In this document: in pieces, positions 20,468 to 63,138 of the stretch | Position numbering within the stretch: the first letter of the stretch is position 1 | How the letters are laid out: the number at the start of each line of letters is the position of its first letter | Assembly: GCA_030432235.1 (NCBI GenBank) | Contig: JAUIHT010000003.1 | Span: 372,001-436,000, forward strand | DNA length: 64,000 nucleotides | Source of the DNA: Verrucomicrobiia bacterium | GTDB taxonomy: Bacteria > Verrucomicrobiota > Verrucomicrobiia > Opitutales > Cerasicoccaceae | Direction of reading: 5' to 3' | The notes under the pieces: model-generated | What the model was told of the DNA's origin: nothing | Databases searched by the model: none | Seen by the model: only the letters and a program-made list of their open reading frames with translations | Position numbers and translations under genes: made by a program

Positions 20468-22447
20468 CTAGCGCTCACCGAAGTCGTCGTAAGCGACGCC
20501 AGTGAGCGGGAAAATCGGGTGTTTCAAGCGTTTCGAGGAGATGTCTTCGAACTGGAGCCCAACGAGGAAGTCCGTGCTGATGAACTCGAGGAAGTCACGG
20601 CGCTGCACGACAAGGCAACGGCTCTCGGTGATGGCCAGGATGTCGGCGGTGGCAGTGCTGTTTTGCAGGAGGCTGATTTCACCGAAGAACTGCCCGGTGG
20701 CGAGCTTGGCCACGCGCTTGCCCTCTACCATGACCTCCAGCAAGCCGTCGTAGATGAGGTAGAAAAACTGGTTGCGCATGCCCTGACGAATAACGGCCTC
20801 GCCGTTGTGAAAGGCCGCGATGTGGGCCAGGCGGGCGAAGCGCGTCAGCGCCTGCGGGTGCCAGTTGTGGCACAGCTCAATGCGGTGCAGGAAGGAGTGC
20901 TTCTCAATGATGGCCTCGACTTCCTTCGCGCCGAGGTTGCGAACGATCAGCTCCTGGAAATCCGCCCGTGAAAGCATGAGCAGCAGGCTCTTGCGCGTGG
21001 CCCGGACGCTTCGCGTGCGCGGGACGTTGTGCAGCAGCGCGATTTCCCCGAAGACATCGCCGGGCTCCAGCTCGGTCACACGGAGGGGGCGGCCGGACTT
21101 GAGCTCCATCAGGACCTCCACCCCGCCGTCGTAGACAAAAAAGAGGTCGTCGCCGGGCTCACCCTGACGCACCACGAGCTTCTTCGGCTGGACCACCAGC
21201 CCGCGCACACGCCCGGCAATTTCATGCAGAAGCGCTTCGTCGAGTCCGCGCAGCAGGAGGGTCTTTTTGAAAAAGCCCACGATATCGGCGGTGGTCAGCT
21301 CGAGCTTGCTGTCGATATCGAGCTTGGGCTTACGGCGGGCCTGATACTCGTCGATGACGTTGAGGAGGTTCTTCGCGATAATCCAGGAAAGCGCTCCGAG
21401 GCTACCGAGGAAGAGCACCCCGATGATAGCCAGCACGATAATGGCAGTGAGACGGGCCATGCCGGAAGTCATGAACTGCCGCGAAAGTTCCGGGAGGTTA
21501 AGATCAAAAGCGCTCAAACTGGCCAAACAAACCGTGCCCAGCCAAGTCAGCGTGAAGGTACTGAAGATGAGCAGATACTTCTTGTCGGTGAACTTCACCC
21601 GCGCGTTGATGAGCGTCCAGAAGAGGCGATTCTGCACGAAGAGGAAGTCACGCGTCGTCGAGAGCGGATAACGTCGGTAGACACTTCGCAACAGCAGGCA
21701 GGCCGGACTGTGGCCCGTCGGCACGGTGACGTAGAAAATGCCCAGCAAGAGGATAAACTCCAGATGCGGATACCAGAACGCCACCATCCCGTTGATGAAG
21801 AACATCGGCGCCATCTGCATCAGAGCGATGGTCATCTCGCAGAGGCGACCGCCCATGCGGGCGTCTTCCACGTTGCAGTGAAAATGCGGGAAGGCGTGTT
21901 TCCACTTAAAGCCGACATCGTAGACCTCGCGGTCGAAGCCCACCAGCAAACAGGCCGACAGAAAGTAACCTATCGTCAACGAGCCGCAAATGAGCAGCCA
22001 GCCGACGAGGATTTCGATGAGATTGCGCGGCACCTCGATGGGATTCAACAACAGGGTAACGAACCCGAAGAGGATCGCCGCCACCCCGAACCAGTGCGCC
22101 ATGCCGAAGCGCAGGCTGTGGTCCCACTCGACCGCCTTGACGCGCTTGGCCTCCGCCTGTTCCTGCCCATCCACCAGCAGCATGCCGGAGACCACCGCCT
22201 TCAGCACCAGCTCGTAAAGGCTCCGCAGCGGCAGGCATTTGCGCTCCGTGATGAGCAGCGGAATCAGCTCCTGCAGGGTCGTGGCCTCCTTGAATCGCCT
22301 CAGAAATGCCCACTGGTCCGTGTCGACGACCAGATATTGTTTGAGCGGCACCTGCTTGAGGATGAGGAACTCACCGTCCGTATCGCTGGCCTCGATGTCC
22401 TCCGATAGCTTGAGGAGCGCCTTGGTCAAAATATGCTGCTGGTCCAT
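20468..22447 (-). CDS. Multi-pass membrane protein with PqqD-like N terminus and two cyclic-nucleotide-binding domains
   Basis: The 659-residue protein starts with a PqqD-like segment (FLILKQVPLKQYLVVDTDQWAFLRRF, 26-51). About six transmembrane helices follow (about 113-340), in an arrangement like the M50-family proteins that also carry a PqqD-like domain. The usual HExxH zinc site is not visible: the first helix has GMAHWFGVAAILFG and a later one GHSPACLLL. It may be an inactive relative. Two CNB domains follow. The first (about 405-520) contains RQGEPGDDLFFVYDGGVEVL and GDVFGEIALLHNVPRTRSVRA. The second (about 530-640) contains RQGMRNQFFYLIYDGLLEVM and GQFFGEISLLQNSTATADI. The first keeps the FGEIALL...RTRSVRA phosphate-cassette pattern. 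Ligand and output are unknown. Confidence 0.7.
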   Translation of the reverse strand: MDQQHILTKALLKLSEDIEASDTDGEFLILKQVPLKQYLVVDTDQWAFLRRFKEATTLQELIPLLITERKCLPLRSLYELVLKAVVSGMLLVDGQEQAEAKRVKAVEWDHSLRFGMAHWFGVAAILFGFVTLLLNPIEVPRNLIEILVGWLLICGSLTIGYFLSACLLVGFDREVYDVGFKWKHAFPHFHCNVEDARMGGRLCEMTIALMQMAPMFFINGMVAFWYPHLEFILLLGIFYVTVPTGHSPACLLLRSVYRRYPLSTTRDFLFVQNRLFWTLINARVKFTDKKYLLIFSTFTLTWLGTVCLASLSAFDLNLPELSRQFMTSGMARLTAIIVLAIIGVLFLGSLGALSWIIAKNLLNVIDEYQARRKPKLDIDSKLELTTADIVGFFKKTLLLRGLDEALLHEIAGRVRGLVVQPKKLVVRQGEPGDDLFFVYDGGVEVLMELKSGRPLRVTELEPGDVFGEIALLHNVPRTRSVRATRKSLLLMLSRADFQELIVRNLGAKEVEAIIEKHSFLHRIELCHNWHPQALTRFARLAHIAAFHNGEAVIRQGMRNQFFYLIYDGLLEVMVEGKRVAKLATGQFFGEISLLQNSTATADILAITESRCLVVQRRDFLEFISTDFLVGLQFEDISSKRLKHPIFPLTGVAYDDFGER

Positions 22448-60272: not shown

Positions 60273-60400
60273 TAATAGAGTCAAAGGGGGTCTTCGAATG
60301 CAATCAAGGTGGAAATCCTGTTCAAATGATTGGGTTTTCCTGACCAAATGATCAAAAGCCGCTTGCCATGAAGGCCCTACCGCCTTCTAAATAACACGCG

Positions 60401-60775
60401 ATGGAGATCGCCGATTACCTTCCCGTTTTGATTCAGGTGCTGCTGGCTGCGGCTTTGGCCGGCGCCATCCTGATGGCCAGCCATGTGTTCGGCCAGCGCG
60501 CGCGTGGGAACTACATCAAGGACAAGGCCTACGAATGCGGCCTGCCCATGGAAGGCAACCCCCATCCGCGCTTCGGCGTCAAGTTCTACGTCGTGGCCAT
60601 GCTCTTTATCCTCTTTGATATCGAGGCCGTCTTTTTGATTCCCTGGGCTTTGATTTATCGCGAGTTCATCGCGTCACATATCCCCATCCTCTGGCCGGTG
60701 ATGTTTTTCATCGGCATCCTGGTGCTCGGGCTTGCTTACGAAATGAAGAAAAAGGGATTGGAGTGGGAACGCTGA
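60401..60775 (+). CDS. nuoA: NADH-quinone oxidoreductase subunit A
   Basis: The 124-residue three-helix subunit of complex I is recognised by ECGLPMEGNPHPRFGVKFYVVAMLFILFDIEAVFLIPWALIYREF, which contains the conserved ECG, FDIE and W motifs. The N- and C-terminal helices fit. It is alone: the downstream gene is the EIIA/DAC fusion and no nuoB-N is in the window. In most bacteria nuoA heads a 13- or 14-gene operon. Another full nuo operon may exist elsewhere, or the genes may be dispersed. Confidence 0.94.
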   Translation: MEIADYLPVLIQVLLAAALAGAILMASHVFGQRARGNYIKDKAYECGLPMEGNPHPRFGVKFYVVAMLFILFDIEAVFLIPWALIYREFIASHIPILWPVMFFIGILVLGLAYEMKKKGLEWER

Positions 60776-60807
60776 TTTTTCTTTCCGGCAATCATAGTTA
60801 TTCCATA

Positions 60808-60830
60808 GGTGCGACCATTTCGGTCGTACC
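60808..60830 (+). promoter_or_regulatory. Hairpin before the EIIA/DAC gene
   Basis: GGTGCGACC-ATTTC-GGTCGTACC forms a 9-base stem (one G-U pair) with a 5-base loop. There is no T run, so it is not a standard terminator for nuoA. It ends 24 bases before the chosen ATG of the next gene. It could be a leader hairpin that influences its translation. Confidence 0.4.
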
Positions 60831-60854
60831 TTGCTAGATGCCGTCAGAAATTTC

Positions 60855-62207
60855 ATGCACCTCGACCGTTATATCTCCAAGACCCGCATCATCGATATCG
60901 TCAGCAGCGATTTCGAAGGGGCTTTGCGCGAGTTGCTTGAGGTCTGCAAGCTCGACGACAAGGTCAACAAAGAGAAAATACTGACCGACCTTTTGGTGCG
61001 GGAGAAGACGATGACCACCTATCTTGGCAGCGGCATCGCCCTCCCCCACCTGCGCCTGCCCATGAAGCGCCAGTACATCTTTGCACTGGGCCGCTGCCCC
61101 GACGGGCTGGACTTCAACGGCAACGAGGAATACCGCGACCTGCGGCTTATCTTCCTGCTGCTGGCCTCGGAGAAGGAAAACTCCTACCTGAACGTGCTGG
61201 CCTCGCTGGCACGCGCCTTCCAGGAGCCCAGCACAGTCGAGCAGCTGACCGAGGCCGACGATCTTGAGACACTACGCAAGAGCGTCTCCACCACCTTCGG
61301 ACGCGGATCGGACCGCAAGCTGACCAAGGACAACAAGTTCAACCGGCTCATCCTGCGCGAGGGCCTGAAGGTCGCCCAGGGGGCCAAGTGCTCCTCCGTC
61401 ATTATCTTCGGAGACACCTTCGCGGGCGGCGTGGACGTCTCCGATCAGTTCGAGAATTTCAAAACCATCCTGGTCACTCAGTCCTCCTCGGAAGTCTCCT
61501 ACAACAAGCAGAACTTCAACGCCATCATTCCGGTGCGCTCCTTCAGCACCAACCGCCTGTCGCAACTGCGCAGCGCCATGCTCATCGGGCTGACGCGCGG
61601 CATCTTCAAGGGCAACGAACGCATCTGCTGCGTCGGCGGCATCCACGCCAGCAATCAGTTCGACACCGTCGTGGTGGTCGACGTCGAACGGGAATTCCAA
61701 TCGGTCTTCACCCGCCAGGCGGACATGCTCCCGCCCACGGTCAAACCCGAGGTCCTCGAACGTGTCCTGGGCATTGCCACCGAGCTGGCCGTCGAAGGCC
61801 GCGAGGGACGCCCCGTCGGCTGCCTCTTCATCCTGGGGGACTCCGCCAAGGTCAAACCGCACATCAAGCAGCTCGTGCTCAATCCCTTCTTCGGCTACGA
61901 CGCCGAGGAGCGCAACATTCTGAATCCCTTCATGGACGAAACCGTGAAGGAGTACTCCTCGCTCGACGGCGCTTTTATTATCAAGGGCGACGGCGCGCTG
62001 GAGTCCGCCGGCAGCTTGGTGCATGCTCCAGAGTACCCGCAAAAGCTGCCCAGCGGCCTGGGCGCACGTCACGCCGCCGGAGCCGCTATTTCAATCGCCG
62101 CCGATTGCATCGCCATCGTGGTCTCGGCCAGCACCGGTACCGTCAATCTCTTCCGCCGCGGTCAAATGCTCCCGCTCATCGAGCGCGCCGTCGGCAAGGA
62201 AGTCTAA
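60855..62207 (+). CDS. PTS EIIA - PK_C-like - diadenylate cyclase fusion (predicted c-di-AMP synthase)
   Basis: The 450-residue cytosolic protein has three parts. Residues 1-145 are a fructose/mannitol-type PTS EIIA domain, with the phosphorylatable His65 in YLGSGIALPHLRLP. Residues about 152-287 (CSSVIIFGDTFAGGVDVSDQFENFKTILVTQ, then ICCVGG) resemble the pyruvate-kinase C-terminal domain that precedes the cyclase in archaeal CdaZ-type proteins. Residues 290-450 are a DAC domain with both catalytic motifs: DGAFIIKGDG (371-380) and GLGARHAAGAAIS (402-414), followed by IVVSASTGTVNLFRRGQ. Known DAC enzymes condense two ATP into c-di-AMP. In many DACs the second motif is RHRAA; here it is RHAAG. 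I chose ATG 60855; the frame is open to TTG 60831. Confidence 0.85.
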   Translation: MHLDRYISKTRIIDIVSSDFEGALRELLEVCKLDDKVNKEKILTDLLVREKTMTTYLGSGIALPHLRLPMKRQYIFALGRCPDGLDFNGNEEYRDLRLIFLLLASEKENSYLNVLASLARAFQEPSTVEQLTEADDLETLRKSVSTTFGRGSDRKLTKDNKFNRLILREGLKVAQGAKCSSVIIFGDTFAGGVDVSDQFENFKTILVTQSSSEVSYNKQNFNAIIPVRSFSTNRLSQLRSAMLIGLTRGIFKGNERICCVGGIHASNQFDTVVVVDVEREFQSVFTRQADMLPPTVKPEVLERVLGIATELAVEGREGRPVGCLFILGDSAKVKPHIKQLVLNPFFGYDAEERNILNPFMDETVKEYSSLDGAFIIKGDGALESAGSLVHAPEYPQKLPSGLGARHAAGAAISIAADCIAIVVSASTGTVNLFRRGQMLPLIERAVGKEV

Positions 62208-62220
62208 GCAGGGCAGCGGC

Positions 62221-62454
62221 CTAATTCTTGCGCTTCAATTTCGCGTATACCAAAAAGCCAGACCCTAGCACCAGCCCGGCTGCTGCTCCATAGAGTGGAT
62301 AAATAACGTAGCCACGCTTATATTCTTCTCTGCTGACCGGCTCTAAGCTTTTTTGGCCACTTGTGGTAAGCTCATCAAAGCCAGTTGCGTGTATTAACCC
62401 AGAAACAGCCCCGGCAATCATAAAGGCGGCCAACGTGATTAACGTGGCTTTCAT
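62221..62454 (-). CDS. Small two-helix membrane protein
   Basis: The 77-residue protein has two hydrophobic helices (LITLAAFMIAGAVSGLIHATG, 5-25, and VIYPLYGAAAGLVLGSGFLVYA, 50-71) and a basic C terminus (KLKRKN). No family is recognised. It is clearly less GC-rich than its neighbours. It lies four bases after phoU on the same strand, so it may be read with the pst-pho transcript. It might be a recent addition. Nothing in the sequence points to a specific role. Confidence 0.6.
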   Translation of the reverse strand: MKATLITLAAFMIAGAVSGLIHATGFDELTTSGQKSLEPVSREEYKRGYVIYPLYGAAAGLVLGSGFLVYAKLKRKN

Positions 62455-62457
62455 TGC

Positions 62458-63138
62458 CTACGAAGCTTCCAGCGAACGCTTGACGGCCTCGGTGTGGCGG
62501 ATGTCGTCGCCTTCGAGCAGGTAGATGACTTCCTCGGCGATGTTGGTGGCGTGGTCGCCGATGCGCTCGAGACTCTTCGAGATAAAGATAAGCCCGATGG
62601 CCATATCGACATCGACCTTGCCCGCCTGGGCGGCCTCGGTCAGCGCGTTATAGTTTTCACGGTTGAGATCATCCACGTCACGATCGCGATGAGGCACGGA
62701 GTAGGCTTTTTCGATATCCTCGTCGATAAAGCTGTCGAGAGCGTCGCGAAGCTGCTCAAGCACCGCAGCGGCCATGGTCGGAATGCCGTGGAGCTGGCGC
62801 GCGGGGCCTTCCTTGGCGATGCGCTCCACGCGCTTGGCAATGGAGGAGGCTTCGTCACCCACACGCTCGAGATCATGACAGGCTTTCATTGCCACCGTCA
62901 GCAGGCGCAGATCAGAGGCTACGGGGGCGCGCAAAGAGATATAGCGGATGGCTTCGCTGTCGATCTGCTTTTCCAGTGCATCTACCTCGTCATCCATATG
63001 ACGGACGCGGCGCGCCACTTCCGGCTCGCTTGTTTCCAGCGAATGCACGGCGAATCGCACGAGGTCGACGGCCTTTTCCCCCATAAGGACAAGACTGTCG
63101 CGAATGCGATCCAAATCATTCTGATAAAAGGAACTCAT
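62458..63138 (-). CDS. phoU: Phosphate-specific transport regulator PhoU
   Basis: The 226-residue protein is a pair of three-helix bundles. Signatures are FYQNDLDRIRDSLVLMGEKAVDLVRFAVHSLETSE, MDDEVDALEKQIDSEAIRYISLRAPVASDLRLLTVAMKACHDLERVGDEASSIAKRVERIA, then the second repeat ending GLIFISKSLERIGDHATNIAEEVIYLLEGDDIRHTEA. The metal-binding ExxxD and ERxGDxA motifs occur in both halves. PhoU damps the PhoR-PhoB response and controls Pst. It lies downstream of pstB on the same strand, as usual. Confidence 0.96.
   Translation of the reverse strand: MSSFYQNDLDRIRDSLVLMGEKAVDLVRFAVHSLETSEPEVARRVRHMDDEVDALEKQIDSEAIRYISLRAPVASDLRLLTVAMKACHDLERVGDEASSIAKRVERIAKEGPARQLHGIPTMAAAVLEQLRDALDSFIDEDIEKAYSVPHRDRDVDDLNRENYNALTEAAQAGKVDVDMAIGLIFISKSLERIGDHATNIAEEVIYLLEGDDIRHTEAVKRSLEAS

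Follow-up and report, generated by a model that had tools for sequence, protein, structure and literature searches.

A gene in the window (the whole 64,000-nucleotide stretch of Verrucomicrobiia DNA that was analysed) encodes a 450-residue protein in which a PTS EIIA domain, a pyruvate-kinase-C-like (PK_C-like) domain and a diadenylate cyclase (DAC) domain follow one another in a single chain. Judged from its sequence, the protein belongs to the c-di-AMP synthases of the wider DacZ/CdaZ kind, to which an EIIA receiver domain has been added, its cyclase activity being predicted. Most DACs of the order Opitutales are of this fusion type, which is also found elsewhere in the phylum. On balance, we lean towards a model in which a regulatory PTS gates c-di-AMP synthesis via EIIA; in this model we infer phosphorylation, cyclase activity, the coupling and its direction, and the potassium output. 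Literature searches gave little on c-di-AMP in this bacterial group.

Domain architecture and predicted fold

The reading frame is open from an ATG at 60855 to the stop at 62207 (Table 1). An alternative TTG start at 60831, given in the list of open reading frames, is disfavoured because M1 is kept in at least 98% of 116 aligned sequences. These 116 non-identical full-length sequences, to which the residue counts refer, come from 141 loci after identical copies were dropped.

Table 1. Coordinates of the fusion gene, its domains, key residues and upstream neighbour in the window
Feature	Position	Strand	Basis
Upstream neighbour, 79 bases before the fusion	60401..60775	+	ORF
EIIA-DacZ_P-DAC fusion protein, 450 aa	60855..62207	+	ORF and M1 conservation
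PTS_EIIA_2 domain, residues 14-142	60894..61280	+	Pfam E 3.6e-21
Codon of His65, candidate phosphorylation site	61047..61049	+	Aligned to PH of PtsN / mannitol EIIA sequences in PDB; 116/116
DacZ_P domain, residues 161-282, pyruvate-kinase-C-like	61335..61700	+	Pfam E 3.7e-17
DAC (diadenylate cyclase) domain, residues 312-437	61788..62165	+	Pfam E 2.4e-18
DGA motif, residues 371-373	61965..61973	+	D371, G372 116/116; A373 111/116
R405-H406 of the RHR equivalent (RHAAG here)	62067..62072	+	R405, H406 116/116
S424-A425-S426, at the place of CdaA SEE	62124..62132	+	Alignment to 6hvl and 4rv7

PTS_EIIA_2, DacZ_P and DAC all score well above their Pfam cut-offs in the 450-residue protein. The PK_C-like DacZ_P domain, which precedes DAC, reaches 62.6 bits against a cut-off of 27.4, and the DAC domain reaches 66.3 bits against 27. 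The top match among curated NCBIfam models is archaeal DacZ (NF041371); its score of 111.4 bits lies far below the cut-off of 430 for this halobacterial DacZ equivalog, to which the protein is accordingly not assigned. The PtsN equivalog (TIGR01419) likewise scores below its cut-off (43.4 against 138.7 bits).

The structure of the fusion was predicted by AlphaFold2 (58 sequences; mean pLDDT 81.6, pTM 0.64). The EIIA part of the model matches EIIA-Ntr (1a6j) with a Z of 18.6 and 2.4 Å over 145 residues. The DAC part matches both DisA (9y9y; Z 16.3, 2.1 Å over 126 residues) and CdaA (8c4n; Z 16.2, 2.7 Å over 131 residues). The middle domain was modelled alone (residues 156–292; pLDDT 81.8, pTM 0.77), and the 50 Foldseek matches listed for it are pyruvate kinases, the chains of 3khd being titled only PFF1300w. 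Comparison with residues 344–471 of M. tuberculosis pyruvate kinase gives a VIA Z of 13.6 and 3.7 Å over 122 residues. A true pyruvate kinase is hit by the DacZ_P profile as well, in its PK_C part, and one DacZ_P match (G175) was rejected as a family member, the protein being a pyruvate kinase.

The original prediction had read the protein as EIIA, a PK_C-like middle and DAC, with a phosphorylatable histidine at residue 65, and had proposed a structural check of the three domains. This reading stands. The three Pfam assignments and the predicted folds agree, the middle domain on its own matches the pyruvate kinase C-terminal domain, the C-terminal domain is predicted to fold as DAC, and His65 lies in GIALPHLRL as claimed.

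Less can be kept of the accompanying statement that the well-known DACs have other partners. DacZ/CdaZ, known from archaea and some bacteria, already combine a PK_C-like domain with a following DAC domain (PMC6741144); the fusion has an extra N-terminal EIIA. DacZ of H. volcanii makes c-di-AMP from ATP, with Mn, and class DacD in the same paper lists proteins of Lacunisphaera, Coraliomargarita and other Opitutae (PMC6741144). These entries probably are the fusion family, because they come from the same group of bacteria, where most genomes with a DAC have none besides the fusion type; the assignment is judged by taxa and by the mostly single-copy DAC. EIIA and phosphotransferase are not mentioned in the text of that paper (PMC6741144). 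A narrow literature search found no paper linking a diadenylate cyclase with EIIA-type terms, nor one with relay, permease, PgpH and co-loss evidence for this fusion, and there is a real chance that the bare EIIA-DacZ_P-DAC architecture has been tabulated before.

EIIA-Ntr (PtsN) shares its fold and the phospho-His motif with the fusion, and the relay in the genome of the window likewise comes without the PF02378 permease. EIIA-Ntr is a free protein, whereas EIIA here is fused to a cyclase, its presumed target being covalently attached. CdaA with PgpH is the c-di-AMP signalling pair of Firmicutes. The fusion shares the DAC fold and motifs with CdaA, and a PgpH-type protein is present in the genome of the window, but the membrane domain CdaA_N is not among the Pfam matches of the fusion, and the input domain differs from that of CdaA.

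Active-site residues of the DAC domain

Six residues are invariant in all 116 sequences: H65 and R67 of EIIA, and D371, G372, R405 and H406 of DAC. Two of these DAC positions belong to the second motif, which reads G-A-R405-H406-A-A-G. The third residue of RHR is thus alanine instead of arginine, as in 108/116 sequences. Position 409 is alanine in 109/116 and glycine in the other seven, this protein (G409) included; the family consensus is RHAAA and RHAAG is a minor form of it. Other members read RHEAA (f31), RHTAG (f84) or RHRAA (G232). Compared with the RHAAG or RHAAA of the fusion, two plasmid-borne DacZ proteins of Haladaptatus have RHHAA; the CdaA-type protein of G040 (L180) has RHAAA. 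Because histidine stands at the third position in these two DacZ proteins and alanine in this CdaA-type relative, the position varies across the superfamily and may not be defining for active DACs.

Published substitutions bear on the same motifs. Changing all three RHR residues to alanine abolishes DAC activity, the third residue alone not being among the changes in the passages cited, and D110A/G111A abolishes the activity of CdaM, while the G73A enzyme of M. tuberculosis stayed active (PMC3328451, PMC13022847).

The protein departs from other DACs at a second place, on which the original prediction is silent: where CdaA has SEE, Ala425 occupies the position of the first glutamate, and glutamate is found there in 5/116 sequences. 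The form SES occurs in all ten fusions read from outside Opitutales and in G001, which is 83% identical to this protein. The glutamate is probably not essential, because the residue differs between near relatives. S-A-S in place of SEE is nonetheless, on sequence grounds, the best argument against full activity.

These replacements are what would speak for a dead DAC domain that binds ATP or c-di-AMP and steers EIIA, which would then be the output towards the PTS or other partners: RHA stands in place of RHR, and most members have another residue where CdaA has its glutamate. We consider this explanation improbable. The aspartate, glycine, arginine and histidine are invariant, RHAAA also occurs in the CdaA-type L180 (its own activity being only predicted), and SES in G001 places the glutamate difference between near relatives. 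In addition, DAC co-occurs with a PgpH-type hydrolase, and three genomes have lost the EIIA domain yet kept DAC (see below). The original prediction had raised doubt about activity from RHAAG in place of RHRAA. The motif letters are right, but the hint of a broken enzyme is weakened by RHAAA being the family consensus and recurring in L180, by RHHAA in Haladaptatus DacZ and by the co-occurrence with the hydrolase, and a dead enzyme was not retained on the strength of RHAAG.

Distribution and probable c-di-AMP turnover

The genome collection holds 242 encoding places for the fusion, and full-length copies are present in 44 of 54 genomes surveyed (the genome of the window and 53 relatives), so the fusion is not a chance occurrence. 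Among the best 80 of the 242 places, the closest named relatives are Cerasicoccus (71–72% identity), a Coraliomargarita (58%) and Pelagicoccus (51–54%). DAC is present in 49/54 genomes; besides the 44 with the full fusion, these are G020, where the fusion is divided between two contigs, G042, where EIIA is degenerate, and G033, G050 and G051, which are without EIIA. In 47 of the 49, all but G040 and G005, no DAC other than the fusion-type cyclase was matched, and it is also the only DAC found in the genome of the window, which is 96% complete. With at most four candidates scored per genome, the full fusion was met in at least six genomes from other parts of the phylum, belonging to three families. 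In f31, a family of the same class outside the order, DacZ_P is found in seven genomes, and all four proteins read carry the full fusion. The candidate phospho-acceptor histidine is present in all ten fusions read from outside Opitutales.

Some genomes hold further cyclases. In G005, of the same family as the window genome, L181:1073-2821 (-) encodes a second protein of DAC type, which combines the sensor domains DACNG and DACNH with a DAC domain that scores more weakly. L188:1238-2137 (+) in G221 encodes a second DacZ-like protein without EIIA, in the SES form, beside the usual fusion, and at L180:15-2327 (+) G040 has, additional to the fusion, a cyclase of CdaA type with a DHH-DHHA1 protein next to it. 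An 840-residue open frame in G305 matches over residues 543–830, and the remainder looks by eye like frame running upstream of the gene.

The gene neighbourhood was compared over 63 loci, the window included, leaving out L037 and loci shorter than 9000 bases. The cluster of the fusion itself came out in 57/63, its place being taken by overlapping frames in the others. The ORF preceding the fusion in the window is one that we take, by eye, to be NuoA-like. In 40/63 loci a nuoA-like cluster precedes the fusion on its strand, and a gene named trpA-like by eye lies downstream in 29/63. Neither kind of neighbour says anything about the role of the protein, and the neighbourhood was set aside as a clue to function. 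Inspection by eye of the ten common neighbour clusters showed none that looked related to the PTS or to potassium, a point against the model favoured here. Scans of 60300-62500 were uninformative: the single promoter-like site (0.6 expected) lies downstream of the gene, and terminator-like sites number four, against 2.1 expected with an sd of 1.5.

A protein with 7TMR-HDED, which we take to be the extracellular part of PgpH, is found in 47/54 genomes, including that of the window, where the protein also has 7TM and HD domains. In the 54 genomes, DAC and the PgpH-type protein occur together in 46, both are missing from four, DAC stands alone in three and the PgpH-type protein in one (Fisher p 5e-4, kinship ignored). 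With the count restricted to the 49 genomes of 90% completeness or more, the corresponding numbers are 46, 2, 1 and 0 (p 0.0026, kinship ignored). This co-occurrence suggests c-di-AMP turnover. In G051, the DAC gene is adjacent to a lysine-decarboxylase-like gene, which in turn is adjacent to a pgpH-type gene, all three on one strand.

On the output side, c-di-AMP has been tied to potassium (PMC13022847). With strict filters, the c-di-AMP riboswitch RF00379 was not found in 53/54 genomes, which likewise counts against the favoured model; the sole match, G026:C32:6320-6489 (-) at L243, is in a genome that is 50% complete, and could be a binning error. Elsewhere in the window, 20468-22447 (-) encodes a 659-residue membrane-like protein, the C-terminal part of which looks by eye like two cyclic-nucleotide-binding domains.

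A proposed PTS relay and the candidate phospho-acceptor histidine

In the genome of the window, two EI-type proteins exceed the NCBIfam cut-off of 341.7 bits; the higher-scoring one reaches 611 bits and contains TSHAVIMAR. Two HPr proteins are likewise above cut-off, with the GIHARPA motif present. No EII gene is evident by eye beside the better-scoring EI gene. Within PF00359, the EIIA family searched, the fusion is the one match in this genome (96% complete). Across the survey, the EI N-domain is found in 43/54 genomes and HPr in 46/54. PF02378, the PTS_EIIC permease family searched, is absent from 48/54 genomes, that of the window among them. Sugar supply, which the original prediction had offered as a possible controller, is less likely in a genome without this permease.

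In the model that we favour, phosphate from phosphoenolpyruvate would travel by way of EI and HPr to His65. Depending on whether it is phosphorylated, EIIA would alter the pairing of the PK_C-like middle and DAC domains and so move c-di-AMP synthesis up or down, and the PgpH-type hydrolase would remove the product. A switch of pairing by an N-terminal EIIA is plausible because DAC domains must pair face to face, and act only when they do (PMC8573169, PMC11066881). The PK_C-like middle would perhaps be regulatory, as has been suggested for such a domain (PMC6741144). As in the PTS-Ntr of Proteobacteria, the input would be the PEP-to-pyruvate balance rather than sugar import. The output would be c-di-AMP, which often regulates potassium and osmotic balance, with potassium as the presumed end point. 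PTS-Ntr has no membrane parts, is purely regulatory and acts on TrkA and KdpD (PMC4635465); unphosphorylated EIIA-Ntr binds KdpD (PMC9239096) and provides a precedent for steering potassium regulators (PMC9239096, PMC4635465).

If true, the model would provide a direct wire from phosphoenolpyruvate to c-di-AMP through a covalently attached PTS receiver. It would also give a purpose to a PTS whose common permease is absent from most of these genomes. A wider form of it is tentative and short of probable: the Opitutales PTS would be mainly a signalling relay, with one EIIA of its family welded to one c-di-AMP synthase, and PEP/pyruvate would set c-di-AMP, and thereby the potassium and osmotic state, via phosphorylation of His65. 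In that form, PTS-Ntr and c-di-AMP, two potassium-regulating systems, would be merged in a single protein.

Since the fusion is the sole PF00359 EIIA found in its genome, HPr may lack another acceptor of that family. This would suit an active cyclase that works in both directions, with binding of c-di-AMP or ATP altering the uptake or return of phosphate by EIIA and the protein serving also as a phosphate sink for the relay. Such a two-way role would depend on PF00359, the EIIA family searched, and we regard it as very improbable.

The distribution of the histidine bears on our preferred model and on a different reading of EIIA, in which the protein is an active c-di-AMP synthase, EIIA is a docking or dimerising module with vestigial or minor phosphorylation, and the real input reaches the protein through the PK_C-like domain. 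The histidine is conserved throughout the close set (116/116) and kept in 41/49 DAC genomes. The original prediction had staked its case on such conservation among orthologues, which fails in two families. Although EI is found in all six genomes concerned, the fusions of f4 (G012, G038, G053) and f20 (G046, G225, G453) lack the histidine: it is replaced by Tyr in f4 and by Ser in G046 and G225, and the motif is gone in G453. One of the searches behind these EI assignments counted long PF02896 proteins (~920 residues) as pyruvate phosphate dikinase by length alone. DAC is kept in these families without a phosphorylatable EIIA, which is evidence against a universal switch. A second EIIA match is found elsewhere in G053 and G046, and none in G038. 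The family f20 itself splits: G028 has a free EIIA-like protein (L239:1367-1921 (+)), with no DAC or PgpH-type protein found, and G046, G225 and G453 have the His-less fusion.

A docking module would account for f4 and f20 keeping the domain without the histidine, and for the EIIA domain being retained without EI in G015, G034 and G037. EIIA-free related cyclases also exist, as a second copy in G221, in G305 and G491, and as Haladaptatus DacZ. Against this, the histidine is invariant in the 116 sequences and in the ten fusions from outside the order, and the domain or the histidine is lost more often without EI and HPr, a weak test. We hold the docking reading to be unlikely, though less so than the other alternatives.

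The test is as follows. EIIA or the histidine is lost in 4/6 DAC genomes in which neither EI nor HPr was found (G033, G050, G051, G042) and in 4/43 of the others (G012, G038, G053, G046), a contrast (p 0.004) that was picked after the data were seen and that treats related genomes as independent. For EI only, the numbers are 4/10 and 4/39 (p 0.044, related genomes again treated as independent), with G020 scored as EI-less although it has a truncated EI-type fragment. Six genomes without detected EI keep the histidine (G015, G020, G023, G034, G037, G044), which speaks against the favoured model. The EIIA domains of G042, G044, G015, G034 and G037 are 1.3 to 2.6 sd low; faster change of EIIA in EI-less genomes is a weak proposal and was not adopted, as several EI-bearing genomes are also low and G023 is not.

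In a tree of the DacZ_P-DAC part, G015, G042, G037, G050 and G033 form part of a supported clade, and a different clade unites G034 and G051, the places of G051, G042, G015, G050, G453 and G232 being flagged as unsure, on long branches. Read on this tree, the pattern suggests that EIIA function was lost about three times within two clades lacking EI, compared with two losses (f4 and f20) among the rest.
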